A stretch of 64,000 bases of DNA from NCBI GenBank assembly GCA_030144725.1, contig JASKMD010000024.1:5167345-5231344 (forward strand), given 5' to 3'. The notes below the pieces were generated by a model. That model was given only the letters and a program-made list of their open reading frames with translations. It was not told the origin of the DNA and searched no databases. Shown here one piece after another: positions 10,391-46,877 of the stretch (position 1 is its first letter; the number at the start of each line of letters is the position of its first letter). Source of the stretch: Haematococcus lacustris. Its lineage: Eukaryota > Chlorophyta > Chlorophyceae > Chlamydomonadales > Haematococcaceae. The translations under genes were made by a program, and so were the position numbers.

Positions 10391-13300
10391 GCCTGTTCCG
10401 AGCTGCAGGGGGGCCAGCCCTCAGCGTAGCCAAGAGCTCAGCGCTCTCTTGTGGTCAGCCGGTAGAGGTCTCGGCAGCGGGGCAGGAGGGGGGCAAAGCA
10501 GGAGCGGGCAGCCAAAGGGGGGAGGGCAACGCAGGGGCGGCCAGCACAGGGGAAGGCAGGGTCACAGGTTGGGTGGGGGGCAGGGGGGAGGGTGGGACGG
10601 GGGCGGGCAGGGCTCAGAGGGACAAGAGCGGGACGGTGAGCCTAGAGAGGGGCAGAGGCACAGGAGCGGGCCATGGCAGAGGGGCTGGCAGCAGCAAGGA
10701 CGGAGGAGGAGAGAGGCTGGGCGAGGGAGGCGGTGGTCAGGAGCATCAGCAGCACAGGTCTCTCAGGCAGGTGCCCCCTTCCTCAACAGTTGCTGCCAAC
10801 CCTACCCAGCTTGCCTCAGCTGGGGGTGGTAGGACTGAGGTGGAGGGGGGAGGTGGCGGGGCAGGGGGAGAGGGGGTGGCTAGGAGCAGAGGGCGGGGCC
10901 GGGGCAAGGGCGGGGCGGAGCGGGGGTGCCAGGGCTGGGAGGGCCAGGGGGCGGGTGAGGGTGAAGGTGGTGCAGGGCCAGGGACCGGGGCTGGAGCCGT
11001 GACCATCCCCCCTTCGCCACAGGGCGTACCCGTCCGGCACCTGGGGGTGCCTCTCGGGGCAGCTAGCTACTCCGCCATGAGCGAGGCTGCCTTTGGAGGG
11101 GCAGCAACAGTCATGGTGGCCGCCTCCCTTCCCTGGCGACCGCAAAGTCTCAACCTGCTGGGTCGGGTGCAAGTGGCGCAGCAATGCCTAGCGTCAAAGG
11201 CCATTTACCAGATGGCGTTCGTGCAGCCCCTGGCTGCAGCCGGAGTGGCGATGGGCAAGGCGGTCAAGCGCTTTGTGGCAGCTTCGGACCTACCCCAGGA
11301 GCGTAGCCCCAACATGGCCTGCCTCTACCCCAACGACGCTACTTGTGTGATGCCCCGACGGGAGGGTGGGCTGGGGCTGCCAGACCTGGAGATCACCAGC
11401 ACCGCCATGCTAGCCAAAACTGTGGCCCAGCTCTTCTCGCCCAGAGTCCGGGAGTGGCAGCCCCTGTTGCACAGCCTGCTCGCCGACCCCCTACACAGCC
11501 TTAGCACCTGGGTAGTCACGGACCCCACAGCCTCCCCCGTGCCCAACCTGAGCCCCCGCCTACAGGCCCACGTCACAGCCATTGCACAGCTCAAGCTCCA
11601 CCGCGTGGTGGCCCCGGCCGCCCAATCTCACTTCTCGGTGCTGGCGGAGCCTCTGCGCTTCAACGCTTTAGTCAGACTGCGGGGCAGGCCAGACAGTGAC
11701 CCCCTGGCAGATGAGGCCCTGCGCTGGACCCACGTTCGGCACGTGCGCGATGCCCTCCATCGACCCCGCTCCGCCTTCGTCTCAGCTGAGCAGCAGGCAG
11801 CCGTGAGGTGGGAGGCTGACATGGCGCGGGCCACCCTGCCGGAGCCGTGGCAACAGGTGGTGGATGTTCGGCAGCTCCCAGCACCGGAGTGGGAGTGTGC
11901 GTGGGGTGGGACGGGCTTCCTGGTGCGGCGCGTTCCCTCTCAGCGGCCGACCCACTGGGTGTCACCTAGCGGTAGGCTGGTGGCCCTGGACGCTCAAGGG
12001 CAGGGTCCCTTGGGGGTTGTAGGGGTTCTCCCCGGGGAGGAGTGGCAGGCTGCAGCAGTGGTGCTCCTGGACAAGCCCCACTATCGGCTGTCCCTTGAAG
12101 AGCGTGCCGCCCACATGCGGCCGCTCCCGGAGCAGCGGGGGGGGGCAGCTGCCCCTGCAGCGTTGGAGCCTAGGGGGGGGCAGGTGGGGGACGAGGGTGT
12201 GGGTAGGGACAACGGGCAGACAGCGGAGGGGGGAAGGGCACAGGGTATTGGGCGCAGTAGGGGTAGGGGTCGGGGCAGGGGTCGTGGGAGGGATGGGGAT
12301 CGCAGCGGGGAGCGGGGGGCAGGCTCAGCGGGCAGGGAGGCCCCCCCCTCCTGGCCTAGGGAGGAGTGGCTGCTCGGACCCTGGTCCCAAGTGCAGCTAG
12401 ACCCTCAGGTTTGGGGCATGGGCAACACCTCCCTCCTGGTGCTCACCGTCAAGGCAGCACGGTTGCGCCTCACGCAGCTGCAGCGGGCCCGCTTCGACCC
12501 CACCTATCCTGCTAGTGGGGGCCTATGGCCAGCCCTTTGGGGGCTGCGCCCGCCGCCAGGGGCTGAGCCAGCTCAGGGGCTAGCCGTCACGGGAGCTGGC
12601 CTTCGGACCCTGGAGCAGCGCTGGCTAGATAGCGCCACCCTCCTGGTAGCGCAACGGGCAGCGGGGGAGCGGGAGCAGCAGGGCAGGGATGTAGAGGAGC
12701 TGCTCCCGGAGGAAGTGCAGGGCAGCCAGACACCGCGTTGGCGTGCCACCAACGCTAGACCTCCTCCGCGGCCCACCCCGGAGCTTAGGGCGGTGCAGCG
12801 GGCACAGCGGAAGCTAGACGCCCAGATCCGACCGGGAAGGGGGGGCAGGCACAGCGGCAACAGGCGGGCAGGCGCGCTGCCCGCCGCCGGGCATGGAGCT
12901 CTGGATGGCATGGTGGACGAACTAGCCCGCTCAGCCCAAGCCGGCCAGCCTTGCCTAGAGGTGTGGCAGGAGCTGCTGGACCCCACCCTCCGCCGGGAGC
13001 ATGTCATTGTGGCGTGGCGGGTGCTGCACGGGAGCCTCATGGTGGGGGCCATGTGGGGCCACATCCTGAAAGAAGCTGCGGCCCCTGCTTCATCAGTCTG
13101 TCGCCTCTGCCAGCTGGGACCCCTGGAGACGCTCACCCATGCCTTCCTTACCTGTCCCTCCGTGGCTCCCGCTTGGGAGTGGGTGCTGGACGTGTACGAA
13201 CGCCTCACAGGCACCCGCCCTCCCTCAAGCGACGCTCTCCTGCTCCTCAGCGGGCGCCCTACGCACAGCGAGGATGGCCCCTTTCACCCCCCCGATGCCC

Positions 13301-13677
13301 ACCTGTGGCTGCGCCTTCGCGTTGCCTACTTGGGGTCGGTGTGGCGCATCCGGTGTTTGGGCCCAGCCGCAGCGCTTCAAACGCAGTCGCTCGCCCATCG
13401 GGTGGCGCAGGGAGTCATCTTCACCCTGTCATCGGCGGTGCAGCGGGACTGGTACCGGGTGGGTAGGGACATTCGGGTGGGGCTGGGCGGCGCCGTCCCG
13501 TCCACGTGGTTCAAGGGGAGAGACCCGCGGCTGGATGAGAGGAAGTTCGCGAGCCTGTGGCCTGCAGCGTCGGGAGGGTGGTTTCAGCGGCAGCAGGGGG
13601 AGCTGGTTGTGCGTCTGTCCTTGCAGTGGCCTGTGCCCGCCCCCCCCATCCTAGGTGCCGCAGCGGAGCCCGGCTAG
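10279..13677 (+). pseudogene. L1 copy 1 ORF2, C-terminal half of reverse transcriptase plus zinc-knuckle region
   Basis: Uninterrupted frame of 1,132 codons. It starts within the palm just before the YADD catalytic box (EYADDLTIAVLD), then has a Gly/Arg-rich low-complexity segment, the RT motif-E-like HLGVPLG (about 11,036-11,056), a long connection region with a second GRGRGRG tract, and a C-terminal CRLCQLGPLETLTHAFLTC zinc-binding (zf-RVT type) motif. The endonuclease and RT motifs upstream of YADD are missing, so no active protein is expected. It is less frame-damaged than copy 2 over the shared region. Confidence 0.88.
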
Positions 13678-14742: not shown

Positions 14743-14887
14743 CCCAGCCCCCAGGTCAGCCCAGCCCAGCCCCCGGGTCAATGGGGGACAGCTGAGCTAA
14801 GTCCCCTCCTTGTGAGCTCGCTGCCTTCCTTGTGCCTTGCTCACGCTGTTTCTCGTCCTGAGCCCCAGGTCCAGTCACCCCCTGACC

Positions 14888-17800
14888 ATGGACAGCAGCC
14901 TTACAGCAGCGATTGCCCAGGTTGCCTCTACCCGTAGCGGGGGCTGGCTCACTCGCCGGCTGACCAAGGAGCCTTTCACCATGGAGGTGGTGTGGGCCAT
15001 GCAGGTTGGGGCCACAGCCCGGCACTTGGTGCAGAGCCAGCTCCTGCATGCCGCGGCAGCCGACTTCGTGGCAGGGTTTGCCGAAGCCTGTGCCACAGAG
15101 GTCCGGCTTTATGCCTTGCAGCATGGCTCAGCTTTGGTCTCGTTAGAGTCCCACCTGCAGCCTGACCAGCCCCACCATGCCCTACACATCCTCCATGATC
15201 ATGCCTCAGCACAGGGCAGGCTTCTCCACTCCTCCCTCCTGGCTCAGTCTGTCTGGGAGGTGCAGTACCTGGGGCGGGTCGTCAGTGTGCCTATGACACC
15301 CCTGCCCAGCCTCCCCCCTCCAGGTGCAGTGAAGGTGGTGCTGAGCCTGCACTACCAGCAGGCAGCGCGGCGAGGCATCACGGCAGCGGTGCTTGCTGCC
15401 GCTGGGTACTCTGCCAGCGAGTACAGCGGGGAGGGGCTGCCTGCTGTCTTACACCCCACCTCCACTTTCGTGTTCAACGAGCGCCTGGGTGACCACCCCC
15501 GGTACAGCTACCTGGCAGGCACACAGTGCGGGAATGGTGGGGTGGTGGAGGCCTGGGTGTTCCCACCAGCGGGTGACCCCTCCTTAGCCTTTCTGCCTAG
15601 GAGTGTGCAGAACCCCATGGGGCGGTGGGGGCGTATCCAGGTCTTTAGGGAGGACGGGGCCCCTCTCCAGCAAGGCGCCGAGGGACCTGCAGGTCCCCAA
15701 CCTCCTCCTCCACCTCCTCCTGATCCCCCCTCAGCCCCCCCCCCTTCACCTCTACCACCCTGCTCACCTTCCCCACCTGCCCAGCCCACCCTTCAGCATG
15801 CTCCAGCCGATGGGCCTATGGCGGACGCCTCAGGAGCCACGAGCGCTTCTTTGCTTGCCGGAGAGGCCGCGGCTCCTACCCTGCTCACCCAGGCGAGTGT
15901 TGAGGGGTTACCTGGCTGGACCTGCTTTGTCCCTTCCACCACCTCCCAGCCCCCTCCTGGCACCGGCGCTGCTGCTGGCCTCCTAGCACGAAAGGAAACA
16001 GAGGGCTTGGGGGCATCTGCTCCACAGCTGCCAGGGCGGCGGCAGCAACAGCAGGTACACCCTCTTCCCCCTGACACTACAGTTGTTGCTACCCCCACCC
16101 AGCACGCCCCAGTAGGGGGTAGCACTGCTGTGGTGCTCGAGGGAATGCAGCCAAAGCCAAGCCTGCTGTTGCCGTTTGGGTCCGTTGAGGGCGTGGCGGC
16201 TCCCCGGCCTGCCACACCTGCTGCCCCCCCCACCCAGCTCACCCTAGCAGTGGGTGGCCCTGCAGTGAGTGTTGCAGGCACCCAGCCTGAGTGTGCCCAG
16301 CTGCTGCAGCCTCTGCCCGACAAGGGCGTCATGGGCCCCGCGCCAGCCACACCTGCTGCCCCCCCCACCCAGCTCACCCTAGCAGTGGGTGGCCCTGCAG
16401 TGAGTGTTGCAGGCACCCAGCCTGAGTGTGCCCAGCTGCTGCAGCCTCTGCCCGACAAGGGCGTCATGGGCCCCGCGCCAGCCACACCTGCTGCCCCCCC
16501 CACCCAGCTCACCCTAGCAGTGGGTGGCCCTGCAGTGAGTGTTGCAGGCACCCAGCCTGAGTGTGCCCAGCTGCTGCAGCCTCTGCCCGACAAGGGCGTC
16601 ATGGGCCCCGCGCCAGCCACACCTGCTGCCCCTCCCACCCAGCTCACCCTAGCAGTGGGTGGCCCTGCAGTGAGTGTTGCAGGCACCCAGCCTGAGTGTG
16701 CCCAGCTGCTGCAGCCTCTGCCCGACAAGGGCGTCATGGGCCCCGCGCCAGCCACACCTGCTGCCCCCCCCACCCAGCTCACCCTAGCAGTGGGTGGCCC
16801 TGCAGTGAGTGTTGCAGGCACCCAGCCTGAGTGTGCCCAGCTGCTGCAGCCTCTGCCCGACAAGGGCGTCATGGGCCCCGCGCCAGCCACACCTGCTGCC
16901 CCTCCCACCCAGCTCACCCCAGCAGGGAGTGGCACTGCAGGGTTTGCTGCAGCTATGCTGCTACCTCTGCCCGATGCGACATCAGAGGATGACTCACCGG
17001 CAGTTTCCCTACGCCCTCGGTATACCCGCCTTGCCAAGGGTGGTACCAAGGTGATTCACCCAGCCACAGCTTCCGCCAAGCCTCAGCAGCTTCAAGCCCT
17101 GGCTCCAGGCCCTATCTTCAAGCCCTCCCGCTTTGACTCTTCGTGGGGTCCGTCTCGCTCGTTGACCACGCAACGTACACCCAACACCGACCTCTGCACC
17201 GACCATCCGCCAGTAAGTAGGAGGGGGGGAGCGGCGGGTCCTTTTCTGGCAGGGTCCAGTCAGTCGCCGCTGGGCCCCCCCGCCCTGCCGATCATGACCA
17301 CCCCCACCCAGCTTGCCCCAGCAGGGGGTGGCATGGCGGGTTACGAGCGGGGGAAGGGGGGTCAGGGTAGCCAGGCTCGGGAGCAGCTGGGTGGCCAGGC
17401 AGGCCAGGACTCCCCCTCAGCGCCGGTCATGGCCACCCCCACCCAGCTCGCCCCAGCAGGGGGTGGCATGGCGGGGTACGAGGGAGGAAAGGAGTTCAAG
17501 GGTGCCCTTGCGCAGCAGCAACAGCGGGCCAACCTTTTTGGGCACCCAAGAGTTCATGCACCGCTGGCCTTCGTTCCTAGGACAGTTGGCAAGGAGACCT
17601 GCGCTTTTACTAGGTTGGGCAGGAGGGCTAGTCAGTGGGTAGAGGAAAGGGCTGGTGCAGCCTCAGGCACAGCAGCGCGGGTGTTGGCGGGGACAGGACA
17701 GCTGGCGATGGTTCCTGCAGTTGGGTTCTCTGTGGTTGCGGGCACTGCTACCCCAGTTGACATGGATGTGGCTCGTCTCCCTCCCTCACCTTCCAACGTG

Positions 17801-18799
17801 CTCAGCTCCCCCACCCTGCGACCCTTGGGCGGGCCCCCCACTCAACGCCCCATCGTCAAGGGCACAGCCGTCCTGCGGATGGAGAGGTTTGTCCGGGGTG
17901 CAGCTAGGACGCTCCAGGACCTAGTTGACCGGGCTCGCCGGCCCAGGGATCCGTGCCAGCTAGCCCACGGAGCTGGTATAACGCAGCCCACCCCAGCCCC
18001 GCTACCTGCTCATCTCTGCCCTCCCCTTATGGCCATCAGTCCACCCACGGAGGCACCACAGATGGTCAGGTACGGGGTCATGGACTGTGACAGCTCAGAG
18101 GACAGTGACCTACCTATCTCCCCTCCTCGCGTCCGCTATGGGGTGCTCTCAGATTTGGAGTCCGAGGATGGTAGCTTGGGGCCTGAGCAGCACGCCGGGC
18201 AGGCCGGGCAGCGCCGTTATCCCTCCCCTCTCATGCCAGGGGCGTGCTCCTCCGCAGGCCAGGGGGCAGCTGGGTACAGTGCGAGGAAGAGGTCTCGGCC
18301 AGCGCGTCAAGGGGCTAGGGTGCCAGAGGTTTTAGGGGGGGATGGTCAGGGGGGAGGCCAAGGTGCCCAGCAGGGAGGCCTACAGGGGGGCCAGCATGGG
18401 CGCCAGCGGGGGAGTAGGGAAGGGGGAGGTCAGGGGGGTCTACAGGGGTGGCCTGGGTTGGGAGCAGGTTGGATGGTGGGTCCAGGAGTAGGTAGGAGGG
18501 TTAGGGAGGCTCGCTCGGCCGAAGGAGCGCCAGCGGGGCCAGTGGCGGTGTCAGCTGTAGGCTTGGGCCAAGAGGCCGGCGTGGGGCACGAGTTAGGGCG
18601 GGAGCGGAGGTTGGACCTCTACCTTCCCCTACCACCTCGCCCGCCTTTAGCTCTTCCGGGCACAGCCCGTCACGCCGTCCCCTCTCCCTGCCGTAAGAAA
18701 GCGGTTTGCGTCGAGACGCCACTCCCACCCCCTCCCCCTCAGGGCTCGCACGCTCTGTTCAGTTCACGCGTAGCCCGCGCGGGGGCCCACCAAGTCTAG
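14888..18799 (+). CDS. L1 copy 2 ORF1 protein (Pro/Ala-rich, with 45-residue tandem repeats)
   Basis: An uninterrupted frame of about 1,303 codons from the ATG in GACCATGG; the frame is open further upstream but has no better start. The first ~240 residues form a compact, non-repetitive domain shared with L1 copy 1. Then come Pro-rich segments and five perfect-period 135-bp repeats plus a partial sixth (about 16,207-16,930; core TQLTLAVGGPAVSVAGTQPE). Two acidic segments with YGVMDCDSSEDSD and YGVLSDLESEDG, and Gly/Gln-rich and basic tails follow. ORF1 proteins of L1-type elements normally bind the element RNA. No RRM or CCHC motif was recognised, so the role is inferred from position only. 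The stop lies 2 bp before the ORF2 ATG. Confidence 0.75.
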   Translation: MDSSLTAAIAQVASTRSGGWLTRRLTKEPFTMEVVWAMQVGATARHLVQSQLLHAAAADFVAGFAEACATEVRLYALQHGSALVSLESHLQPDQPHHALHILHDHASAQGRLLHSSLLAQSVWEVQYLGRVVSVPMTPLPSLPPPGAVKVVLSLHYQQAARRGITAAVLAAAGYSASEYSGEGLPAVLHPTSTFVFNERLGDHPRYSYLAGTQCGNGGVVEAWVFPPAGDPSLAFLPRSVQNPMGRWGRIQVFREDGAPLQQGAEGPAGPQPPPPPPPDPPSAPPPSPLPPCSPSPPAQPTLQHAPADGPMADASGATSASLLAGEAAAPTLLTQASVEGLPGWTCFVPSTTSQPPPGTGAAAGLLARKETEGLGASAPQLPGRRQQQQVHPLPPDTTVVATPTQHAPVGGSTAVVLEGMQPKPSLLLPFGSVEGVAAPRPATPAAPPTQLTLAVGGPAVSVAGTQPECAQLLQPLPDKGVMGPAPATPAAPPTQLTLAVGGPAVSVAGTQPECAQLLQPLPDKGVMGPAPATPAAPPTQLTLAVGGPAVSVAGTQPECAQLLQPLPDKGVMGPAPATPAAPPTQLTLAVGGPAVSVAGTQPECAQLLQPLPDKGVMGPAPATPAAPPTQLTLAVGGPAVSVAGTQPECAQLLQPLPDKGVMGPAPATPAAPPTQLTPAGSGTAGFAAAMLLPLPDATSEDDSPAVSLRPRYTRLAKGGTKVIHPATASAKPQQLQALAPGPIFKPSRFDSSWGPSRSLTTQRTPNTDLCTDHPPVSRRGGAAGPFLAGSSQSPLGPPALPIMTTPTQLAPAGGGMAGYERGKGGQGSQAREQLGGQAGQDSPSAPVMATPTQLAPAGGGMAGYEGGKEFKGALAQQQQRANLFGHPRVHAPLAFVPRTVGKETCAFTRLGRRASQWVEERAGAASGTAARVLAGTGQLAMVPAVGFSVVAGTATPVDMDVARLPPSPSNVLSSPTLRPLGGPPTQRPIVKGTAVLRMERFVRGAARTLQDLVDRARRPRDPCQLAHGAGITQPTPAPLPAHLCPPLMAISPPTEAPQMVRYGVMDCDSSEDSDLPISPPRVRYGVLSDLESEDGSLGPEQHAGQAGQRRYPSPLMPGACSSAGQGAAGYSARKRSRPARQGARVPEVLGGDGQGGGQGAQQGGLQGGQHGRQRGSREGGGQGGLQGWPGLGAGWMVGPGVGRRVREARSAEGAPAGPVAVSAVGLGQEAGVGHELGRERRLDLYLPLPPRPPLALPGTARHAVPSPCRKKAVCVETPLPPPPPQGSHALFSSRVARAGAHQV
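16207..16930 (+). repeat. 135-bp coding tandem repeat in L1 ORF1
   Basis: Spacing measured at ACCCTAGCAG/ACCC: 16,241, 16,376, 16,511, 16,646 and 16,781, with a diverged sixth copy at 16,916. The period is exactly 135 bp (45 codons), so the frame is preserved. The copies are nearly identical, indicating recent expansion or homogenisation. Confidence 0.95.
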
Positions 18800-18801
18800 C
18801 C

Positions 18802-19622
18802 ATGCAGCGTCCGGGTGTGGCTGCCAGTTTCCAGGCAGTCACCCTCAACGTCAGGGGCCTAGCTCAGCCCCGCAAGCTCCAGGCCCTGCTGGATTGGGCT
18901 GCCAGCAGCACCGCTCAGTTATTCTTTTTCCAAGAGTGCCACCAGGCGGAGTGCCTGTGGCAGTGGGCAGAGGCAGCCACAGGTGCCAAGCCGGGGTGGC
19001 GGGGCCAATGGTTCTACAGCCCAGGCACCGGCCACTCCCAGGGCTGCCTGGTCCTAGTCAAGCCCTCCACCATCCTGCAGGGCTGCACACAGGTGCAGTT
19101 GCAGGTAGACGGGGCACAGGGGAGGGTGGTGAGGGTAGATGCAGAGTTAGCGGGCAGGCCAGCATCGCTGGTGTGTGTGTACGCCCCAGCCCAGCCAGCA
19201 CAGCGGGCTGCTTTCTTCGGGGCCAGCCTGCCTGCTTGCCTCCCTCACGCCACAGAGCGCCGCATGCTCTTCTTGGGAGGGGATTTCAACTGCATCCTCT
19301 CCCCGGACGACAAGGTGGGCACACCCGTGGGGGCGACCAGCCAGCACGCGGAGGACTGGGTGGGTAGCAGGGGAGTGGGGGCGGAGCAGCTGGAGCGGTT
19401 GGTGGAGGAGAGGGGCTTAGTGGATGCCTGGCGTCGTTTGCGCCCCACCTCCCGCGACCTCACGCACCTCAGCAACCGCTGGCAGACAGGGGCCCGCCTT
19501 GACCGCTGGTACGTCTCAACCTCCGTGGCGGAGTGGCAGTTGGACAGCTCCATCCAGGGCCTCAAGCCGGTCTCCACCGATCACTTCCCAGTGTCCGTGG
19601 TCATGTACCCTCCAGACCTGCC
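18802..19622 (+). pseudogene. L1 copy 2 ORF2, 5' part: APE-type endonuclease
   Basis: The frame starts with MQRPGVAASFQAVTLNVRG. Apurinic-endonuclease motifs appear in order: N in TLNVRG, E in FQECHQ, GGDFN, and TDHFP near the C-terminus. In a L1-type element this domain nicks the target for target-primed reverse transcription. The Dualen-type element inserted directly after the PPDLP codons, and the frame would terminate inside it at 19,647. The ORF1 stop and this ATG are arranged as TAGCCATG. Confidence 0.87.
19610..19622 (+). repeat. Target-site duplication, left copy (13 bp)
   Basis: CTCCAGACCTGCC, repeated exactly at 30,364-30,376. The bases on either side differ, so the duplication is 13 bp. 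It marks the insertion point of the Dualen-type element in L1 ORF2. Confidence 0.95.
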
Positions 19623-19667
19623 CTGTCCTGTTGGTAGGACGTGCTAGAGCAAGCGTAGAGCTTTGGA

Positions 19668-22600
19668 ATGAGCTTCGAATCACCTAAGTTGACCTCGTTG
19701 ACTGCCGTCGTTGGAGCCAGAGCGATGGAGCTAGATGGCAGGCGTAAGCTAGCTCTAGTTCTGCTACTCCTACTGACTTGCGCTGGGCGGTGCTGGGGCG
19801 GTGCGAGCATCGGTGGCAACAGCCACCCTTGCCGCCGCTTGTCAGACCGCCCAGGCACCGTGCGAGGGAAACCTCACGGTAGCTACGCAATCAGGGTCAC
19901 GACCAGGCCACTGGCCCAATACAACGCTAATCTTCAAGCCCTTACGGGCACTACCTTATCCCTCGCGGACATTTTTACACCACCTGCAGGCACACCGCTG
20001 CCAAAATACACCCTCAAGATAGCCAACGACAGTTCGGCCTTCAGCATGGGCGCCTGTGTGGCCCAGGATGCCCACTTTGAGCACCCTGAGCTACCAGCCC
20101 CGGCTGCTACAAACACAACTGCTATCCACAATGACCTGCCAGCCAGGCACAACCAACTGTTTGACACAGGGATGCAAGCCATCTATGTTAACATGCAGGG
20201 TGAAAAGAGACATGTAGCTCAGCTTTACTACCACCTGCCAGCCCTGGCTGTTGCAGGCTGGTACGACCAGCTAGCTGTAACTAAGATGCAAGCTTCTGAT
20301 GCTGATATGGAGGCTGATATGGAGGGCAATGCTGCAAAGCCTTACCACCACCTGCCAGCCCTGACTGTCATGCCCAATACCCTCTGTCACATCACCAACA
20401 ACCACAACCCACATCACCACAACCACAACCCACATCACCAAGAACCACAACCCTCTGTTCACCAACAACTACAACCCACACACATTGGGACAACCATTAA
20501 ACAACATAACAGGCTAATGAACATGCTCATGCTCTTTGTTATATGCGCGCACGTGCTAAACACACTATACCAACGCATAAGCCACCCCTTGCAGCCCACA
20601 ATCAAGGATTCCAAACGTTGCTTTAGGAAACACAAGAAACTAATCGCCCGTATCAGAGCGACGGTTAGGACCACTTGCTACAATCTCATGGCAGGGATAG
20701 ACGGCACCCAAGCATCCTCTTGTGCCCTCTGCAAGCTTGCCAACAAGTTTCACCTCTCTACGCATGGAGCCAACAGCAGCCATCCTTACACAGTCAACCA
20801 GTTTAACAGCACACTGCATGTCTACTGCACCTACCAGATAGCAGCAAATAGGAATGGAAAAGAAAATACCCCATGCACCATGGACCCCTTCTCTGCAGCC
20901 CGGGCTGTCTACGTGGCCTGGCTACTGCTAGCCGCTGGGGATGTTGAAGCTAACCCCGGCCCAGCCCACTGTGAGGAGCATCACTCAGGAGCCAACCCTA
21001 ACCCCCTTTATTTCGAAGTACAAATAGGTCGCAATTGCCAAGCCCACTCCCTTAACAATGCAGCTGGCAAGCATTGGGTGGAACCTAATGACCTTCACAC
21101 TTTCTGGAAAGCCTGGCGAGACAGACTTTACGACGAAGGCGACAGGAATGCGTGGACGATTGCACGTGGCGACGGAGGTGCACTTAGCGACGAGGTCATC
21201 CACCTCTATCTTCAGACACACTTCGGCCTCACTCTTACAAGCGTCGCCCAACTACACACCGCAGAGGACTGGAGCGACGACAAGTTTGACGCATTGGCGA
21301 TAATGTACGCCACCCTTAACTTCTTATGTAAAACGAACGGTCACAGCATGGCAATTAGAAAACTTGGCGGCCATTGGAAGCTCCTAGACTCCGACAGCCC
21401 CAGTAAAGCAGCTATACCAATTCACGAGCTGTCGCCTCTCCACAAAACAACCTTCCACGAGATATTCGTCATTTCACCAGACCCAGCAGCCACACCGACA
21501 CAAACCATAGCCCTAAGACGAGAAGGTGTATGCCACATCATAAGTCATAAGGAAGACAACATACCCAGGTACACATTGCCAAACCGACCCCAACCCCCAT
21601 ACATGGAGTGTCAACATGATAACTGCTGCCTTGTACATGCCTTCAACATGGCCATGGGAGTCAAGCTGATAGACCATCAAGCAGTCATTAGACATTGTAA
21701 GAACCTGGCGGACCACATGCAACAACTAGCACAACAAGCCCGAGGCATGGGGCTTGCAGTGAGAGCATTGCACACAAGCCATATCTACGACAAAGAAGGC
21801 AAGTTCTCATTAGACACACTGAACCACTACCTCCACCGCACACATCATAATACCTATCTACACCCCGCCACCCAACCCCTCCCCCGAGGCAGCATCACAC
21901 CCAGTAGGATCCTTGGTGCAATAACAGACACAGGTGCAACATGCACAAGCGCAATTATCCTCCTCTCATGCAGCGATGGCAAAGGCATCGGCCATGCGAC
22001 TGCCATTAGGCACACCTCACAAGGATGGCTCTGGCTAGACTCACTACGCCACGCACCACAACCACTAAGCACGCCCCTTGACTGGCAACGCCTTCAGGGC
22101 AGCCTGCTGACCATCACTGCAGGCAACGTAGAGCACACAACATTTGTCCGTAAAGAGATATGGATAGCAGACCCCCAGGCAGGCTACACACCTCAAGACC
22201 TAGCCGCACACCTTGCAGACCACACGACCCCCATAGACCTCACTACAGAAGCACATCAGACCAGAGCGATGCCCACTTTAAATACCACCCTGAACCCTAG
22301 ATCCAAGAAAACCAACCCCATAAACCCTACAACCAAACATACCAAACGCAGACAGGCAGCCCCAGCCCCAGCCCCAGCCCCAGCCCCAGCCCCAGCCCCA
22401 GCCCCAGCCCCAGCCCCAGCCCCAGCCCCAGCCCCAGCCCCAGCCCCAGCCCCAGCCCTAGCCCCAGCCCCAGCCCCAGCCCCAACCCCAGCCCCAGCCC
22501 CTCACCCCAACCCATCCCCACCCCAGGCAGCAGAGCCACCCCCCCTCAGCAAGCCCATGCAACAAGTGCCCCCCATGACAAAGAAGCGGCGCCCAGTCAG

Positions 22601-25600
22601 AGTTACCACCCACGACAACAACACCAAGCGCCAAATTCGCATCACCAACTTCTTCTCCTCGAAGACTCCCTCTGAACCATGTGCCACGCCCAGCACCAAC
22701 AACAACACTCGTACAGGCCAGCCCGCCATCACAACGGTACCAACAACCACGCCTAACCCCAAACCCATACCCATCCTCAGCAACCTCACAATCAGCACAC
22801 TCAACACACAAGGCCTCTACACAAAGAGACAAGACGTTACAGAGCTGATTCTGGAAGACAACCCAGACATTCTAGTACTCACAGAGACCAAGATAGGCAG
22901 GAAGAGCAAGATGACGCCAAGATGGCTGCAAACAATGCTACGTGACTACACCTGGTGGCACAGCCACCACCACACCGCAGGTACCATCCTAGCTGTCAAG
23001 CGCTCTATAGCTGTGGCAACCACAGCCAAAGCAAACACCGCTGACACTGCTGGGAGACTGGTCACAGCCACCCTGCAGCCCACAAACTCCACGCCAGTCA
23101 TCCTGATAGGTACCTACTGGCCATCAGGACACAGCGCAGCAGCGTCCTCAGCCCGCCTCGCCATGCAAGACACCATAACAACACTCCTAAATGCACACAG
23201 ATCACACCTCCCCCTAATGATAGGAGACATGAATGCCACCTGGCGGCCCAATGACAGGAGCAGCAACACCACCTACCCGCATGACATGGAGTACAGGGCC
23301 TTCTTGCACTCCCAGAACCTGCAGCCAGTGCAACAAGAAGATAGAAAAGCCACACACAGGCAATGGAAGGAGGCAGACGAAACAGGCCAGCCACAAAGTA
23401 CTGACAGCCGCATTGATGACATCCTCACACGCAACAGCCCCGGAAAACTACGGCTGCTAGCCTGCGCAAGCAAATGGGGAGGCGGGCTCAGCGACCACCT
23501 ACCCCTTACTATGGCCCTAGATATCACGTCCACTGGCCTCAACATACCTGCCATACCCACATTGCCGACCTTAAGACAGACCTGCAAAAAAGCGCTCACA
23601 ACTCCAGTCAGCAAAGAAGACCAGGAGAAGTTCAAGCAAGCCTGCCAAGACACGAACAACAACATTCCACAACTCCTAGCACGCCTGCAATTGACCCTGA
23701 GACCTGCTAAAACAGCGGCACAAGCACACTATGCAGCCATCACCAACAGTTGCGCCAAATCTATCCAGCAACTAACCCACATCGATGGAACCAGTGCACC
23801 AATAGTTGTGAATGAGCTGGCCACCCATATGCACAATCTCCTGGACAAATGCCTCAAGGTGGCAATAGAAAACTGCCAAACCAAAACCCATAATGCCACA
23901 GGTCAACACTACCGGCTGCGAGGCTGCAACAAACTCAGAAGCCACAAGCGGCACACCCACCTATGGATCAAGCATGCACAACACCACCTGAGCGACTACA
24001 AGGGAAGCACCATCACCGACGCACTAACACATGTGCCTCCCCTCCCCTCCTGCAAAATACCTACGGCGGCCAAGCAGACAGCACTAGACATCATACGGAT
24101 GTATCACAAAGACGGCACTCCTGTCCACACTGCCCTAAAACTAGCCTACAAACACACAAAAACAGACCTACAATCCTATGACAAAGAGCAGTCAGCTATC
24201 CATGCTGACAGACACCGAGCAGCTGCCCAGAAGCTCATTCACACCAAACCACGGCTAGCAAACAAGGCCATCTTCCAACCATCGAGCAAACGCCACACCA
24301 TCACAGCCCTACACGATGACAGAACTGGTGCGCTGGCAACAGACCCCACACAACTTGTCCAGGTAGCTGACCGCTACTTTACGCGAACGTGGGCCGCCAC
24401 AGGTAGCAAATCAGGGATATACCTACCAGAACACTGCCCTAGAAAGGCACCTTGGGAGCAGCCCAATGCCATTGACCGCTTCACACTTAAGACGGGCGCC
24501 ACCCAGCGAGAAGAGCCAGACCTGGAAGGCAACAAAGCAAAGAGGGCGTGGCTTAACTCCACGATCCAGGACACCGCAACCTTCCACACATGCCTAAAAC
24601 AGCTGAGCAGCGGCAAAGCACCAGGACCAGATGACATACCTAACGAACTACTGAAAATGCTACCGGATGAAATCACGACCGCCATACACGACATGTTCAC
24701 AGTCCTATGGGCGACAGGCCTCACCCCCACCGGATGGAAGACTAGCAACACTGTGCTCATCTACAAAAACAAGGGGTCCGAGACTGACCTAGCCAACTAC
24801 AGACCCATCGGCCTTGCCAACACCCTCTACAAACTATGGACACGTATGATCACAGTGGCACTATACGAGTATGCTGAACAACACAACGTCCTTAGTAGCT
24901 GCCAGGCAGGCTTCCGCAGGCACCAAGACACTATGACCCAGCTGCAAAGCCTAGTCATGGCCCTTGAAGACGCCAAGATAGGCCAACAAGACATCTACGC
25001 ACTCATCGTAGACTTTACCTCTGCCTTTAACACCACCGATCAGGATAAAGCACTCTGGATCATGTATGACCTGGGCTTTCCCACAGACGCCATCGAGGCA
25101 GTAAAAGATCTCTACACCGGAGCGAGCAGCACAGTACAGCTCACACCACAACTGAAAGGCCAACCTGTTCCTATCACACGAGGCACTATCCAAGGAGACT
25201 CTCTCTCCCCCCTACTATTCCTAATCTACATGGAGCCGCTCTTGCGATGGCTGCACGTTGGAGGCAGAGGGTATGAGCACAGCTGCCTCGATGCAACCCA
25301 GCACCAGGACAACACTCTACGACACCAAAACAAACTGAGCAGCCTAGCCTTTGCAGACGACCTCATCATTCTCACCTCGTGCCTCTCCGACCTTAAGATC
25401 CAGGCGCATAAGCTCACAGAGTTCTCCACTTGGGGAAGCCTGCAAGTGTCAGGCAGCAAAACCAAAGTAACAGGCATACTACACCAAAAGGCCAAGACAA
25501 AAGTCTATGGCACAAATGACCCCACAGCCCAGGTGGCAGCCCAGCTCCATGGCCAGATTGAGGTGCAAGGGCAGACCACTCAGTACCTCCCCCCCACCCA

Positions 25601-28600
25601 GCCCTTCCTGTACCTAGGTGTCAACATCACCATGACCCTCGACTGGAAGCACCAGCATAGGCGCATGACTGACACCCTCCGCTCCAGGCTTGAATGCCTC
25701 CGCACATCATACGCCTCACCTCGTCAGACCCTCCACATCGTGAAGACGGCAGTGGCCACCTGCTTGGCCTATGCCTTTCCAGTGACACCCTGCTCACCCA
25801 CTGACCTAGAAGCATGGGACAGCATGATAACCACAATGATGAAGCGCAGGTTTGGCCTGTGGGTCAGCGCACCTAGCGCCATGATCCGTGAAGATACAGA
25901 CACCTTTGGCCTAGGATGCACCTCACTGGCAGTGGAATACAACAGCCGCTGCGTGAAGACACTATTGGAAGGACTCCAAGCGGAGGGCCGCTACGGCAAG
26001 GTCACCAGGTCCATGCTTGCCATGCAGATCACGTACCTCTCGCAGCTGCTAGCCCAAAAGCCATCCAGACATCAGACTCAGAAGGAGCTGCAGAAATGCT
26101 CTCGCACTCGCCAGCTGCTCTGCGCCCACAACAGCTCCCTGCAAGTGGCACTCCAAGGCACCACCATTGACCCCCCTCTGCTGGCACAGCTACATGCTAT
26201 ACACACAGCATCGGTGGCCCAACCCCTAGACAAACACCACACTAGAGTGATGCGTGCCATAGTGGGCCCCCTCATTGCACTTGGCTTCTCTGGTCCCCAC
26301 CAGCTGCTAGAAATGAAAGGCACCAACATCATATCAGGCAGAGAGTTGAGGGCCCTCGCCAAACAAAGGGGCAGGAGGGCAACACACAAACACATTGGAG
26401 CCCTAAACCGCCTGCGCCTGCTGCTTCAGCTAGGGGAGGAACCCACCTCAGACCAACTGCAAGCCATCATGAACCACCGGGACATCAACCTGGACCTGGA
26501 CCTCAAACACAGGCAGACGCACCAGAGCATGGGAGGCCTCACAGCCTGCCAGTGGACTGACAAAAGCACATACGCACTACCGGGGTGGAACTGGCAGGCC
26601 TCCATCGCCTCCAACCAAGTCATTCGCATCACCGACCTCTTCAATAAGCCTCCCGAACAACCCACTGCTGCCCCACCACCCCACACAAACACACAACACA
26701 CCGGTGCAACCACAACCGACCCACAGAACATCAACAACAAGAGGCCTGCGCCGAAACCACCCACCGGCAACAAGAGCATGGGCAGAGTAGCCCTACCTGA
26801 TGCCACTGACCTCCCATTGCCACACCTGAACCCGACCCAGCTATACACCTGGAAGGAGGACCAAGCCACAAGTGGCACAGTTAGCCACAGCCAAATGATG
26901 TTGAATCAGATGTTCAGGCACAGGGAAAAGATCAAGAAGGTCTTTGGCTGGCAGATTACTAACACCACATTTGGCCTAGACCGACGCCCCAAAGCAGCAA
27001 GAAGGACACACCAAAAGCAACAATCTAAAGAGGAGGTTGATGGCACCATGCAACAGCAATACTGGGTAACATGGCACCCGTCAAGAGTTGAGAAATGGGC
27101 CCTACCCCTCTACGCCAAGAACGGCTACCACCCGCAGAGCGTAAAGCCCTACCTACGCAGCCAACTCAGGGACGACGACTGCGACTGTGAGCTATGCTGG
27201 TCACCCAACAGCAGGGAGAATGATGCAGATGCTGCAGACATGTATGTCTGTGACACATGCCAACGCACGTACCACTGGCAGTGCCTTCTTGACTGCAAAT
27301 GCGCCAAGCCAAGTGAAAGACCTGGCTCTGATGACAACGCAGAATGGGAATGCCCCTCTTGCGCACCGCTAGCTCCACACGAGAAGGAGGCACGCAGAGC
27401 CGCTGCTGACGAGGAGATAGTAGAGGTCCACTGGGAACCCAGCGCGGAGGCATTCACCATGCTAAATCACCATACAGACTTCTGCGAGCACATGGAGGAG
27501 TACAAAACAGAGACGGAGGCTAGGCAATACGCACTCACAAGCACGCGCAAGGACGGCGACATTAACGACGATCTGATGCGACAAAGCATGAGCGACACTG
27601 CACGTGGACAATGGCAGTCCACCCACGGCGACCCGCTACGCTCCAAAATTAGATTTGATATCCTCCCCACTAACCCGCAACTTGACATATGCCCAACTGG
27701 AAGGTGCGAAGTGTGGCTCCGACATGCAGACTTCTACCCCTGCCAACCAACCCCAGCCCCCACACAAGCCCTACCCCAACCAATCACACAGCAGGTCGTA
27801 GCCGTCTACAACACAGATGGTAAATGCGTGGGAGTCATTGCACCCGCCCGAGCAGCAAACCTGCTATCTAGATACAACGCAACACAGAAGAACGCCCCGA
27901 CACCCCTAAACACCAGCTTTGCCGCAGAGCTTGCCAGCCTCTTGGCAAGGCATGGCCAAGCAACCGCTGATGCCACACACACAACCCCCACACCAATCGT
28001 CCACATCCTGAGACAACACCTGGAGATCACCAAGGAACGCTACACCACCCCTCTCCACTGCAGCCCACTCTTTGAAGAGTACTACAGCCCATGCGAAAAA
28101 GACAAACTGTTTGGCTCACTGGGCCCCCCCTTACTCTGCCAGCACCAAGGCATGTCATGGGCCCAACCCACCAAAGCAGACATCATTATGGCTGTGCGAC
28201 ACGCCCTACACGCAGCACAAGCCCCAACACACACACCAACCCTCACTGCCATGCTCCTGCCCAACAAAGGACGCACAAACTCTGCAACATACATGCGGTG
28301 GATTTCTGAGCACCCCCACCTGTGCACCAAAATTGGCACCTTCGCACCCCATGCGCTGCAGCCAGACCCGCCGCAAGCATGGGCTGGGAGCATACCGTAC
28401 ACCTGCAGCAACAAACACCACTCACTGCTCGTACTTATTCACAACTCGAGCGCAATACATCATCTGCAAGCACGGAACCCACTATGGCTCGACAGCTTGC
28501 GCGGCGCTTTGAGTCAGCTCGCTGGTAGGAAGTTCCTACCCCCCTTAAACACACGCCAACCCCCCCCACCGCCGGCCCACACAAGCTTGATAGGGGCTGG

Positions 28601-30182
28601 CACCTACAGGAAACTACCCCAAGATACACCAACACCCCCCACAGCCCTCCCCCCCACCTCTCACACCCCCGATACCCACTGGAGCGGCACCCACCTCCAA
28701 TCAAAGGTTGGGGACTGGAAATCATGGACATACACCGATGGCAGCTGCACCACAGCACCAGGAGCAGCCCAACGCATTGGAGCAGGCATCTACCACCCCC
28801 AGGGCACACAACAACACCAAACCATCAACCCCAGTGGAGAGGGGGCTACCAACACGATCACAAGAGCCGAGCTCGCAGCCATCAAGGCAGCACTAGACCA
28901 AGGGCACACACACATCGCCACCGACAGCCTCACCGCCATGTTTCAAATAAGGATGGCTGCCCTCCAACCCATGCGTCTCCACCTGCACAAGCACAAGGAT
29001 ATCCTTACCACCATAGTACAAACAATCAAAGCTAGCCCTACCACGATACACCTCTTCAAGGTGAGAGCACACAATGGCATCATTGGCAACGAATACGCCG
29101 ACCACACAGCCAAACTGGCAGCACAACATGATAACCATGACATCACCATCCCAGGTTGCAAGGATCCCTACCACGACATCCATTGGCTGCAAACTCCTGG
29201 GAAGGAGGACCACCCCCCCCGGCCACTAGGAGACCTGACGGGCAGCCTGAAAACACACATGCACACCAGACATAGACTTGGACTGGCCAACCAAGACTCC
29301 ATCTACTACGAGGCATGGCAGTCCATCACCCTCATAGCACACAAGATGAGCAACTTCCTTTGGCGCGATGGGGCCATCACCACGCCACAACAACGGTGCA
29401 TAATGCGCTATAGAACTGGCACTCTCTACAATCAGAAGCACGCAGTCCGTTTTGGGCTCAGCGACAGCACAAACTGCCCACTATGCGGCCAGCCGGACAG
29501 CGCCCTACACATCCTGTCAGGCTGCACTGCTACGAACAAGCTAGTCACGCACCGCCACAATGCGGCCGGCCGCGCCATCCTCCGAGCCGTGCAGGATGGA
29601 GCCCTCGGCGCCGGCCTGGTCTTCACCGATGTCGGCGACCTGTACGAGGACAGCGACACAGCTTCTCCGATCAAAAGCAAGCTCAAACGCAGAAACCTGA
29701 GACGCGCGCTCGACATAGACCCCACCACTACAGGACGAATCACCTACCCGGACGCCGTGATTATCTCCCCAAACGGGCCCTACGAAGGACCGGCGACGAA
29801 GATCCCGCTGAGGCATAGACATGTGACCCTGATAGAAATAAAATATTGCATGGACACCGACCCAACGGAACAACTACACAAAGCGACCGCGCAGCACGCC
29901 AACTTGCTTCAAGCACTCCAACCAGGCATCAACTGTGCCTCCGCAAAACAAATCAACATCATGCTAGGAGTGGGTGGCACAATATACAAGGACCACACCC
30001 ATAAGCGACTTCTAGAGCTAGGAGTAAATGACACAAACGACAACCTGCTGAAGTGGCTACACCGACATGCGATACAAACTGCACATGCACTCGTTGTAGC
30101 GAGACGGCAAGCTGAACCGCCGAAACAGCAAAGAAAGCAAACCAAACAATGGACACGAACGGCAAGGGCACCGGCTGGATGA
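19668..30182 (+). CDS. Dualen-type polyprotein: leader, 2A, 2x Josephin-like protease, APE, RT, PHD, RNase H, RLE
   Basis: 3,504 residues, no internal stop. From M1: signal-peptide-like MELDGRRKLALVLLLLLTCAG (from residue 20, an alternative start at 19,725); His-rich stretch ~241-262; hydrophobic segment ~283-303; 2A motif ending at G431/P432; Josephin-like domain 1 (Q452, C457, H559, D574); Josephin-like domain 2 (Q649, C654, H776, D791); (AP)n linker ~897-945; APE endonuclease (N1046, E1073, GDMN with D1187/N1189, SDH 1275-1277); RT ~1640-2030 (D1782, FADD with D1897/D1898); PHD finger ~2506-2570; a protease-like remnant ~2917-2945; RNase H ~3018-3155 (YTDGS, RAE, TDS, EYAD); zinc knuckle CPLCGQPDSALHILSGC at ~3270; restriction-like endonuclease with YPDAV (D3362) and IEIKY (E3390, K3392). 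It drives target-primed retrotransposition; the protease targets are unknown. Confidence 0.92.
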   Translation: MSFESPKLTSLTAVVGARAMELDGRRKLALVLLLLLTCAGRCWGGASIGGNSHPCRRLSDRPGTVRGKPHGSYAIRVTTRPLAQYNANLQALTGTTLSLADIFTPPAGTPLPKYTLKIANDSSAFSMGACVAQDAHFEHPELPAPAATNTTAIHNDLPARHNQLFDTGMQAIYVNMQGEKRHVAQLYYHLPALAVAGWYDQLAVTKMQASDADMEADMEGNAAKPYHHLPALTVMPNTLCHITNNHNPHHHNHNPHHQEPQPSVHQQLQPTHIGTTIKQHNRLMNMLMLFVICAHVLNTLYQRISHPLQPTIKDSKRCFRKHKKLIARIRATVRTTCYNLMAGIDGTQASSCALCKLANKFHLSTHGANSSHPYTVNQFNSTLHVYCTYQIAANRNGKENTPCTMDPFSAARAVYVAWLLLAAGDVEANPGPAHCEEHHSGANPNPLYFEVQIGRNCQAHSLNNAAGKHWVEPNDLHTFWKAWRDRLYDEGDRNAWTIARGDGGALSDEVIHLYLQTHFGLTLTSVAQLHTAEDWSDDKFDALAIMYATLNFLCKTNGHSMAIRKLGGHWKLLDSDSPSKAAIPIHELSPLHKTTFHEIFVISPDPAATPTQTIALRREGVCHIISHKEDNIPRYTLPNRPQPPYMECQHDNCCLVHAFNMAMGVKLIDHQAVIRHCKNLADHMQQLAQQARGMGLAVRALHTSHIYDKEGKFSLDTLNHYLHRTHHNTYLHPATQPLPRGSITPSRILGAITDTGATCTSAIILLSCSDGKGIGHATAIRHTSQGWLWLDSLRHAPQPLSTPLDWQRLQGSLLTITAGNVEHTTFVRKEIWIADPQAGYTPQDLAAHLADHTTPIDLTTEAHQTRAMPTLNTTLNPRSKKTNPINPTTKHTKRRQAAPAPAPAPAPAPAPAPAPAPAPAPAPAPAPAPALAPAPAPAPTPAPAPHPNPSPPQAAEPPPLSKPMQQVPPMTKKRRPVRVTTHDNNTKRQIRITNFFSSKTPSEPCATPSTNNNTRTGQPAITTVPTTTPNPKPIPILSNLTISTLNTQGLYTKRQDVTELILEDNPDILVLTETKIGRKSKMTPRWLQTMLRDYTWWHSHHHTAGTILAVKRSIAVATTAKANTADTAGRLVTATLQPTNSTPVILIGTYWPSGHSAAASSARLAMQDTITTLLNAHRSHLPLMIGDMNATWRPNDRSSNTTYPHDMEYRAFLHSQNLQPVQQEDRKATHRQWKEADETGQPQSTDSRIDDILTRNSPGKLRLLACASKWGGGLSDHLPLTMALDITSTGLNIPAIPTLPTLRQTCKKALTTPVSKEDQEKFKQACQDTNNNIPQLLARLQLTLRPAKTAAQAHYAAITNSCAKSIQQLTHIDGTSAPIVVNELATHMHNLLDKCLKVAIENCQTKTHNATGQHYRLRGCNKLRSHKRHTHLWIKHAQHHLSDYKGSTITDALTHVPPLPSCKIPTAAKQTALDIIRMYHKDGTPVHTALKLAYKHTKTDLQSYDKEQSAIHADRHRAAAQKLIHTKPRLANKAIFQPSSKRHTITALHDDRTGALATDPTQLVQVADRYFTRTWAATGSKSGIYLPEHCPRKAPWEQPNAIDRFTLKTGATQREEPDLEGNKAKRAWLNSTIQDTATFHTCLKQLSSGKAPGPDDIPNELLKMLPDEITTAIHDMFTVLWATGLTPTGWKTSNTVLIYKNKGSETDLANYRPIGLANTLYKLWTRMITVALYEYAEQHNVLSSCQAGFRRHQDTMTQLQSLVMALEDAKIGQQDIYALIVDFTSAFNTTDQDKALWIMYDLGFPTDAIEAVKDLYTGASSTVQLTPQLKGQPVPITRGTIQGDSLSPLLFLIYMEPLLRWLHVGGRGYEHSCLDATQHQDNTLRHQNKLSSLAFADDLIILTSCLSDLKIQAHKLTEFSTWGSLQVSGSKTKVTGILHQKAKTKVYGTNDPTAQVAAQLHGQIEVQGQTTQYLPPTQPFLYLGVNITMTLDWKHQHRRMTDTLRSRLECLRTSYASPRQTLHIVKTAVATCLAYAFPVTPCSPTDLEAWDSMITTMMKRRFGLWVSAPSAMIREDTDTFGLGCTSLAVEYNSRCVKTLLEGLQAEGRYGKVTRSMLAMQITYLSQLLAQKPSRHQTQKELQKCSRTRQLLCAHNSSLQVALQGTTIDPPLLAQLHAIHTASVAQPLDKHHTRVMRAIVGPLIALGFSGPHQLLEMKGTNIISGRELRALAKQRGRRATHKHIGALNRLRLLLQLGEEPTSDQLQAIMNHRDINLDLDLKHRQTHQSMGGLTACQWTDKSTYALPGWNWQASIASNQVIRITDLFNKPPEQPTAAPPPHTNTQHTGATTTDPQNINNKRPAPKPPTGNKSMGRVALPDATDLPLPHLNPTQLYTWKEDQATSGTVSHSQMMLNQMFRHREKIKKVFGWQITNTTFGLDRRPKAARRTHQKQQSKEEVDGTMQQQYWVTWHPSRVEKWALPLYAKNGYHPQSVKPYLRSQLRDDDCDCELCWSPNSRENDADAADMYVCDTCQRTYHWQCLLDCKCAKPSERPGSDDNAEWECPSCAPLAPHEKEARRAAADEEIVEVHWEPSAEAFTMLNHHTDFCEHMEEYKTETEARQYALTSTRKDGDINDDLMRQSMSDTARGQWQSTHGDPLRSKIRFDILPTNPQLDICPTGRCEVWLRHADFYPCQPTPAPTQALPQPITQQVVAVYNTDGKCVGVIAPARAANLLSRYNATQKNAPTPLNTSFAAELASLLARHGQATADATHTTPTPIVHILRQHLEITKERYTTPLHCSPLFEEYYSPCEKDKLFGSLGPPLLCQHQGMSWAQPTKADIIMAVRHALHAAQAPTHTPTLTAMLLPNKGRTNSATYMRWISEHPHLCTKIGTFAPHALQPDPPQAWAGSIPYTCSNKHHSLLVLIHNSSAIHHLQARNPLWLDSLRGALSQLAGRKFLPPLNTRQPPPPPAHTSLIGAGTYRKLPQDTPTPPTALPPTSHTPDTHWSGTHLQSKVGDWKSWTYTDGSCTTAPGAAQRIGAGIYHPQGTQQHQTINPSGEGATNTITRAELAAIKAALDQGHTHIATDSLTAMFQIRMAALQPMRLHLHKHKDILTTIVQTIKASPTTIHLFKVRAHNGIIGNEYADHTAKLAAQHDNHDITIPGCKDPYHDIHWLQTPGKEDHPPRPLGDLTGSLKTHMHTRHRLGLANQDSIYYEAWQSITLIAHKMSNFLWRDGAITTPQQRCIMRYRTGTLYNQKHAVRFGLSDSTNCPLCGQPDSALHILSGCTATNKLVTHRHNAAGRAILRAVQDGALGAGLVFTDVGDLYEDSDTASPIKSKLKRRNLRRALDIDPTTTGRITYPDAVIISPNGPYEGPATKIPLRHRHVTLIEIKYCMDTDPTEQLHKATAQHANLLQALQPGINCASAKQINIMLGVGGTIYKDHTHKRLLELGVNDTNDNLLKWLHRHAIQTAHALVVARRQAEPPKQQRKQTKQWTRTARAPAG
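20904..20963 (+). other. 2A ribosome-skipping (StopGo) motif
   Basis: Encodes a hydrophobic stretch followed by LLLAAGDVEANPGP, a full match to the 2A consensus D-V/I-E-x-N-P-G-P. In known 2A sequences the ribosome fails to form the Gly-Pro bond, releasing the upstream product and continuing from Pro. Here that would separate a 431-residue leader protein from the enzymatic part starting at Pro432. Confidence 0.9.
22357..22503 (+). repeat. (CCAGCC)n tract encoding an Ala-Pro linker
   Basis: About 24 hexamer units, with rare variants, encode alternating Ala-Pro between the protease domains and the APE endonuclease. Such repeats form stiff extended linkers. Copy number is likely unstable but always stays in frame. 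Confidence 0.93.
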
Positions 30183-30363
30183 GCTATGCGGGGGAGGGAG
30201 GATGTTGACATGGCCCCTGGGTGCGCCCGGTAGCCTGGCAACCCTCCCTCCCCACCCCCCCCCACCTGTCTCCGGTGGGAGGGTAGCAAGGGCACGCCCC
30301 GAGGCTACTCTCCCCCCTTAATGCACGCCCGACGGCGAGGGCGTAGTCTTTCTTTCTTTCTTT
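30183..30363 (+). other. Dualen-type 3' UTR with terminal hairpin and (CTTT)n tail
   Basis: After the stop come C/G-rich sequence and ACGCCCGACGGCGAGGGCGT (a short stem closed by ACGCCC/GGGCGT), then AGT and a CTTT tandem ending at the target duplication. There is no poly(A). A related arrangement ends the truncated copy at 39,090. The hairpin is a candidate recognition site for the element's own RT. Confidence 0.75.
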
Positions 30364-30376
30364 CTCCAGACCTGCC
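30364..30376 (+). repeat. Target-site duplication, right copy (13 bp)
   Basis: Second copy of CTCCAGACCTGCC. Reading across one copy joins the ORF2 codons ...YPPDLP to LTARAPW... in the same frame, so the pre-insertion ORF2 was continuous here. Confidence 0.95.
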
Positions 30377-46273: not shown

Positions 46274-46433
46274 ACCACACTGAATATCTAGATTGTGGCT
46301 CTGTAACTTTGTTCCTAACTCAACAACACAGCTGTTGGAGAAGAAAGCACGTCATTTCATTGAGTAAGCTTGTGGGAACATACATTGGCGTAACCTAACT
46401 TTGCCTTGCAGTGCTGACTAGCCCAACCGGACC

Positions 46434-46865: not shown

Positions 46866-46877
46866 CATCCTAGACCA

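Follow-up and report, generated by a model that had tools for sequence, protein, structure and literature searches.

The first proteins of LINE retrotransposons are poorly understood and are usually presumed to be RNA packagers. L1Tc and the elements of Odon 2013 are reportedly 2A-bearing non-LTR elements of the APE type. The element described here shares with these LINEs a 2A inside a LINE protein (as cited in PMC4981915) and differs from them in its long predicted membrane-type upstream product, its RLE-like nuclease and its protease. In SpNLR2A, too, 2A recoding is joined with ER targeting, predicted in our case; there, however, an N-terminal 2A is itself the signal, whereas the signal-like segment reported here stands about 385 residues upstream of an internal 2A (PMC4981915). 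Reticulate ORF1 evolution has been described in CR1/L2 elements (PMC4120745), in which the first protein is likewise reshuffled between lineages and the enzyme part is more tree-like, but where ORF1 is a separate frame instead of one part of a single frame with a seam at the 2A. The membrane-binding ORF1 esterases (PMC3905857) also tie a LINE first protein to membranes; they bind phospholipids and liposomes, whereas the leader here is predicted to carry a signal peptide and to be an integral membrane protein. That LINEs can bear a 2A, and that ORF1 can be shuffled, was already known. The Dualen/RandI elements of green algae resemble our element in having an APE and a PD-(D/E)xK endonuclease, a reverse transcriptase, an RNase H and a non-poly(A) 3' repeat tail, and we assume that a cysteine protease is common to both as well. 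What appears to set our element apart, judged against the papers searched, is its signal-peptide/TM leader with a 2A. Dualen/RandI is defined by the presence of both endonucleases (PMC4640811, PMC3636483), and Dualen has been named in relatives of Chlamydomonas (PMC8226300). A published table lists non-poly(A) 3' repeats for the green-algal RandI families and a (CTTT)n end for SINEX-2_CR, which it pairs with RandI-2 (PMC3747384).

In this study we analysed a stretch of 64,000 nucleotides from Haematococcus lacustris ('the window'), in which a Dualen-type insert sits nested in another non-LTR element. Because the target-site duplication brackets both, leader and enzymes are one inserted unit, and the possibility that the leader is foreign flank is ruled out by this duplication together with the leaders common to other copies. 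The insert starts inside the 5' UTR, which is about 55-60 nt shorter than in three other copies (L032, L033 and L036, counted by eye); its reading frame is whole. The interrupted second element (14816-19609 and 30377-32405, halves on either side of the insert) has an ORF1-like frame with nearly identical ~45-aa tandem repeats at 15793-17055, where the opposite strand is likewise open, an APE at 18706-19647 and an RT frame that resumes after 30377. Elsewhere in the window, a long frame at 10273-13677, weakly matched by zf-RVT (E 1.4e-4, below cut-off), is probably another non-LTR remnant, and frames at 46422-48439 have a Lamprin-like low-complexity match (E ~1e-16).

The 3,504-aa frame of the insert reads, in order, leader, 2A, Josephin-like protease, APE, RT, RNase H and PD...E.K nuclease, with Pfam matches above cut-off for Josephin, APE, RT and RNase H (see table). 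The protease, which presumably has a deubiquitinase fold, shows the consensus C..HA.N and HA...W..LDS among relatives (alignment A2). Between RT and RNase H lies a PCIF1-like match that is below the Pfam cut-off in the window copy; PF12237 is precomputed on many relatives, and we take the PCIF1 family to be linked to m6Am methylation. In the C-terminal nuclease, C3270, C3273, H3281, C3286, P3361 and D3362 are invariant and E3390 is nearly invariant in 15 sequences; among those of 106 matches that cover each position, P and D are kept in at least 80% and E in at least 95%. A PDB sequence search with this nuclease gave no meaningful match. Kojima and Fujiwara 2005 reportedly included a cysteine protease in the definition of Dualen. 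With an APE upstream of the RT, a C-terminal CCHC and PD-(D/E)xK nuclease recognised by motif, an RNase H and a cysteine protease all found, the element appears to fit the Dualen/RandI architecture, because APE, PD-(D/E)xK nuclease and RNase H occur together; this is an assignment by domain content.

Table. Features of the nested insert and its borders in the window.
Feature	Residues	Position	Strand	Evidence
Target-site duplication, left copy, CTCCAGACCTGCC		19610..19622	+	13/13 match with 30364-30376
RandI/Dualen-type non-LTR insert, 10,741 bp		19623..30363	+	target-site duplication on both sides
5' UTR remnant		19623..19667	+	comparison of copies' upstream DNA
Single ORF, 3,504 aa		19668..30182	+	unbroken frame
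Signal-peptide-like segment	20-46	19725..19805	+	12-mer KD 3.02
Variable, repeat-bearing, His-rich predicted luminal part	47-280	19806..20507	+	tandem repeat; dN/dS
TM-like segment, then basic stretch	283-301	20514..20570	+	KD 1.71
Conserved leader C-terminal domain	306-404	20583..20879	+	dN/dS 0.18; invariant columns in alignment A1
Hydrophobic context and 2A core	405-432	20880..20963	+	core sequence; dN/dS 0.18
Josephin-like cysteine protease	649-802	21612..22073	+	PF02099 E 5.5e-11
APE-type endonuclease	1044-1257	22797..23438	+	PF03372 E 8.8e-10
Reverse transcriptase	1704-1987	24777..25628	+	PF00078 E 7.2e-23
PCIF1-like region	2748-2829	27909..28154	+	PF12237 E 1.2e-4, 22.1 bits (cut-off 31.1)
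RNase H	3021-3152	28728..29123	+	PF00075 E 3.6e-15
CCHC and PD...E.K nuclease (RLE-like)	3270-3392	29475..29843	+	motif conservation
3' UTR, ends in (TTTC)n		30183..30363	+	sequence
Target-site duplication, right copy		30364..30376	+	13/13 match with left copy

Could the leader be untranslated read-through in a T-poor region? Stop counts, substitution rates and codon-position composition exclude this. The window's leader has no in-frame stop, against 17-27 in each of the five other frames, and six leaders from four subfamilies, chosen as unbroken, likewise lack in-frame stops while each of their other frames has 17-106. Over residues 1-404 of seven subfamily-A copies dN/dS is 0.38 (0.40 when L035, with an unlike N-terminus, and L012, with a shorter leader of 405 codons, are counted), and the codon-position composition resembles that of the enzyme part. 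Judged by these ratios the leader is under purifying selection similar to that on the enzyme part, where dN/dS is 0.31 over the first 160 residues after the 2A (six copies); decay after insertion would raise all these values. Within subfamily A the ratio is 0.74 for residues 1-50, where changes are few and the signal-peptide region is weakly constrained, 0.63 for residues 51-160, 0.49 for residues 161-280 and 0.18 both for residues 306-404 and for residues 405-432. Pfam gave only FragX_IP for the window's leader (E 0.1, below cut-off) and no match for the leaders of subfamilies B and D2; the D1 leader (L047) matches DUF6993 above cut-off (E 1e-7), with weaker matches besides and no single stretch that passes, perhaps due to repeats. 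The AlphaFold model of the leader is unusable (pLDDT 29.9). Two proteins share the leader at 0.55-1.75x its length, both from H. lacustris and one of them with an RT domain. Leaders in L044, L046 and L050 range from about 430 to more than 2,000 aa, length differences that are mostly driven by repeats, either His-rich units or, at the D2 start, TQLGDNSEKH units.

The original prediction had placed three features upstream of a perfect 2A core, a signal-peptide-like start, a His-rich stretch and a hydrophobic segment, and all of them are present. The first begins at Met20 (MELDGRRKLALVLLLLLTCAGRCWGG; 12-residue KD 3.02), the second lies on a 22-bp tandem repeat at 20388-20480, and the third occupies residues 283-301. 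The core itself is DVEANPGP at residues 425-432 and ends at 20963, which puts the predicted skip site at Gly431/Pro432, as proposed. All evidence for targeting is hydropathy (KD). Of 60 internal methionines in the same polyprotein none has a hydropathy window of at least 2.3 inside 60 residues. When leaders were read from far upstream, a signal-peptide-like start was found in 19 of 21 (12-residue KD 2.43-3.55); of the two exceptions L043 leaves the fetched stretch and L045 has none, and L034 was counted despite a run of N. These starts stem from at least three unlike N-terminal modules: those of A and D1 are related (E 4e-5), and those of B and D2 have no match at E 0.1 to A/D1 or to one another.

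The TM-like segment of the window has a net charge of +7 in the next 25 residues and of +1 in the preceding 25. In all 20 locus leaders scored, the 19-mer of highest KD (sought from 260 to 60 residues upstream of the 2A end, no fixed cut-off being set) falls 150-160 residues before the 2A end; its KD is 1.16-2.02, and the 25 residues that follow carry a charge of +7 to +9, those that precede it -1 to +2. By this measure the segment is only moderately hydrophobic in the loci. Among H. lacustris gene models, 18 of the 30 scored have a segment at 146-175 residues, followed by a charge of +2 to +9. Twelve have no segment at that distance, possibly because they are mis-spliced, and four more were too short to score. 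According to the positive-inside rule, basic charge marks the cytosolic side of a membrane. The basic charge after the TM-like segment therefore predicts that the leader is a membrane protein with a cytosolic C-terminus, which would place 2A and enzymes on the cytosolic side as well. The conserved NxS/T sites near the 2A, which follow the TM-like segment, are unlikely glycan sites, since under this topology they lie on the predicted cytosolic side.

TM-like segments are also frequent in the leaders of proteins that carry no H. lacustris label. A search with the RT gave 246 matches, of which 120 were listed; among these were 60 new proteins without an H. lacustris label. We kept the 35 whose endonuclease match starts at residue 493 or later and dropped the other 25, and let the leader end where the match to the window's post-2A region starts or, failing that, 450 residues before the endonuclease. 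The 25,313 leader residues contain 34 TM-like 19-mers, compared with a single one in the 101,176 residues that follow (~136-fold denser in leaders), and at least one occurs in the leader of 19 of the 35 proteins. Shuffled leaders gave a mean of 7.5 and a maximum of 16 such segments against 35 real ones in a slightly different count. A signal-peptide-like start was seen at 6 of 35 N-termini and at 6 of 2,139 internal methionines; many of the contigs may be 5'-truncated. Seven of these relatives (P0071, P0102, P0082, P0095, P0108, P0109 and P0112) have a 2A or 2A-like core, some reading GIE or GVE without the canonical Asp, and none was found in the other 28. In P0071 and P0102 a single frame holds two such cores and would yield three products. 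The fixed-spacing hydrophobic segment was not seen in the seven 2A-bearing relatives; in P0102 and P0112 a hydrophobic segment lies 231-241 residues before the 2A end. The 2A is thus apparently not universal in the wider clade, which refines the original prediction, and the membrane-type leader looks more widespread than the 2A. In relatives without a 2A, one possibility is that the protease releases the enzyme. No relatives turned up in viral contigs when peptide patterns for the N-terminal part or the RT were tried.

It might be argued that the leader is a cytosolic RNA-binding protein of ORF1 type that never enters the ER, its hydrophobic stretches serving packing or belonging to the 2A context. 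The strongly basic stretch after the hydrophobic segment, the NxS/T sites on the predicted cytosolic side and the moderate TM hydropathy would agree with this, as would the general presumption that LINE ORF1 proteins package RNA (PMC3905857). We nevertheless think it rather unlikely, as a hydrophobic segment near the start is kept across unlike N-terminal modules and TM-like segments are so much denser in the leaders than in the enzyme part of the 35 wider relatives. More improbable still, to our mind, is an envelope-like or secreted glycoprotein with which the element leaves the cell in vesicles or passes from cell to cell. The signal-like start, the variable repeat-rich outer part and the conserved TM with its tail resemble those of surface proteins, but Pfam found no envelope domain of retroviral or other type in four leaders, and the window's leader has no significant PDB match (best E 1.5).

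The core at this locus conforms to D(V/I)ExNPGP, the definition of a 2A / StopGo sequence in PMC4981915, and FMDV 2A is functional in the green alga Chlamydomonas reinhardtii (PMC3427385). In the 307.9-Mb genome we counted, by pattern alone, 590 DNA matches to D[VIM]ExNPGP (268 and 322 per strand), whereas the reversed pattern occurs 3 times, so that the excess goes beyond chance; the 2A-core places listed have many synonymous spellings. A context of the type WLLLAAGD recurs before the 2A across many families. The hydrophobic segment directly before the core appears to be part of the 2A's own context, a refinement of the original prediction. This segment resembles the N-terminal 2A signals of PMC4981915, and Met405 lies within ACCATGG. 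One could therefore picture the 2A as a dual-function signal, as in sea-urchin NLR proteins, with translation starting at Met405 and the upstream frame mostly untranslated; in many other families, too, a Met lies 10-46 residues ahead of the 2A end. Such a start is, however, weakened by the absence of this Met in D1 and D2, and in P0007, P0009 and P0012 the last Met stands 81-102 residues before the 2A end. An N-terminal 2A serving as signal was not found here, as the 2A is internal and the upstream frame is coding by both dN/dS and stop counts. We consider this reading very improbable.

Related copies had been proposed as a check on leader and 2A. A leader query against the genome gave 235 matches (97 of 3,061 candidates were scored), with only two containing stops among those listed. 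All 30 of the best genomic matches carry the core, which the query itself included, and no copy examined lacked both core and leader. L009 no longer has an open frame that spans both core and leader. The core occurs in 17 of 26 gene models and in 16 of 38 further H. lacustris proteins; several core-less gene models start downstream of the core, and P0047 has a D1-type leader start yet no core.

The 2A also coincides with a break in homology between lineages. Identity of A and D1 per 20 codons is 0.70-0.87 between about 186 and 21 codons upstream of the 2A end, 0.74 across that end and 0.39-0.76, mostly below 0.64, after it; further up, a gap-rich interval has 0.50. At fourfold sites, scored in codons whose first two bases are shared, A and D1 have 46 same and 22 different upstream of the 2A and 22 and 47 downstream (p=3.7e-5). 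The contrast is found in other pairs as well (A vs D2, p=0.0036; B vs D1, p=3.2e-5; D1 vs D2, p=0.022), while A and B, which have both parts in common, gave p=0.2. The reverse combination exists too: P0005 and P0008 share 87% identity in the part that follows the 2A and 37% in the part that precedes it, and for P0016 and D2 the values are 77% and 38%. This drop of homology at the 2A end indicates that leader and enzyme modules have been exchanged there. A and B have the same conserved domain and enzyme with unlike N-terminal modules, which points to a second seam further up, probably located in the repeat region. The leader resembles an ORF1-equivalent module that can be swapped out, a point that refines the original prediction.

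Taken together, we give a probability of about two in three to the reading that a RandI/Dualen-type element obtains two proteins from a single frame, an ER-membrane leader being split by the 2A from a cytosolic enzyme. The leader, as ORF1-equivalent, would be taken to the ER, where its variable repeat part would enter the lumen until the TM-like segment stopped transfer and left the conserved C-terminal domain in the cytosol. The ribosome would skip the Gly431-Pro432 bond, so that the leader stayed in the membrane while a protease-APE-RT-RNase H-RLE enzyme able to enter the nucleus was freed in the cytosol; without skipping, the enzyme would stay tethered to the membrane. The leader might act at a membrane step, for instance when RNPs assemble or dock at the ER or nuclear envelope. 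Membrane roles have been suggested for LINE ORF1 proteins (PMC3905857), and ESCRT is reported to be critical for LINE retrotransposition (PMC5478143). The parallel to L1 is only partial, because glycosylation and the exocytic pathway are dispensable there according to a section heading of PMC5478143. This dispensability counts against our reading, as do the moderate TM hydropathy, the 12 gene models with no segment, their wider charge range, the NxS/T placement, the dN/dS of residues 1-50, the 28 relatives with no 2A found, P0047 and the low pLDDT. A bolder version, in which the whole Dualen-like LINE clade has an integral-membrane and possibly surface-exposed glycoprotein first, a LINE counterpart of env shuffled at the 2A seam, seems to us quite unlikely; if true, the element could use the secretory pathway or exit the cell.

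The original prediction that a leader with a 2A may be undescribed in a Dualen-type element agrees with the open-access literature searched, which showed no such description (the original Dualen paper and Odon 2013 lie outside it). For an exchange seam at the 2A, too, no description was found in the open-access literature searched; a 2026 StopGo paper (PMC12846837) has retrotransposons in a reference only, and no alga. In conclusion, the coincidence of the 2A with the exchange boundary suggests that first proteins can be replaced in one recombination step with the enzyme undisturbed. If an ER-targeted leader and skipping hold true, a retrotransposon would use one mRNA to supply two different compartments, each with its own product, and the predicted membrane leader would offer a direct test of the membrane steps that have been proposed in LINE replication.
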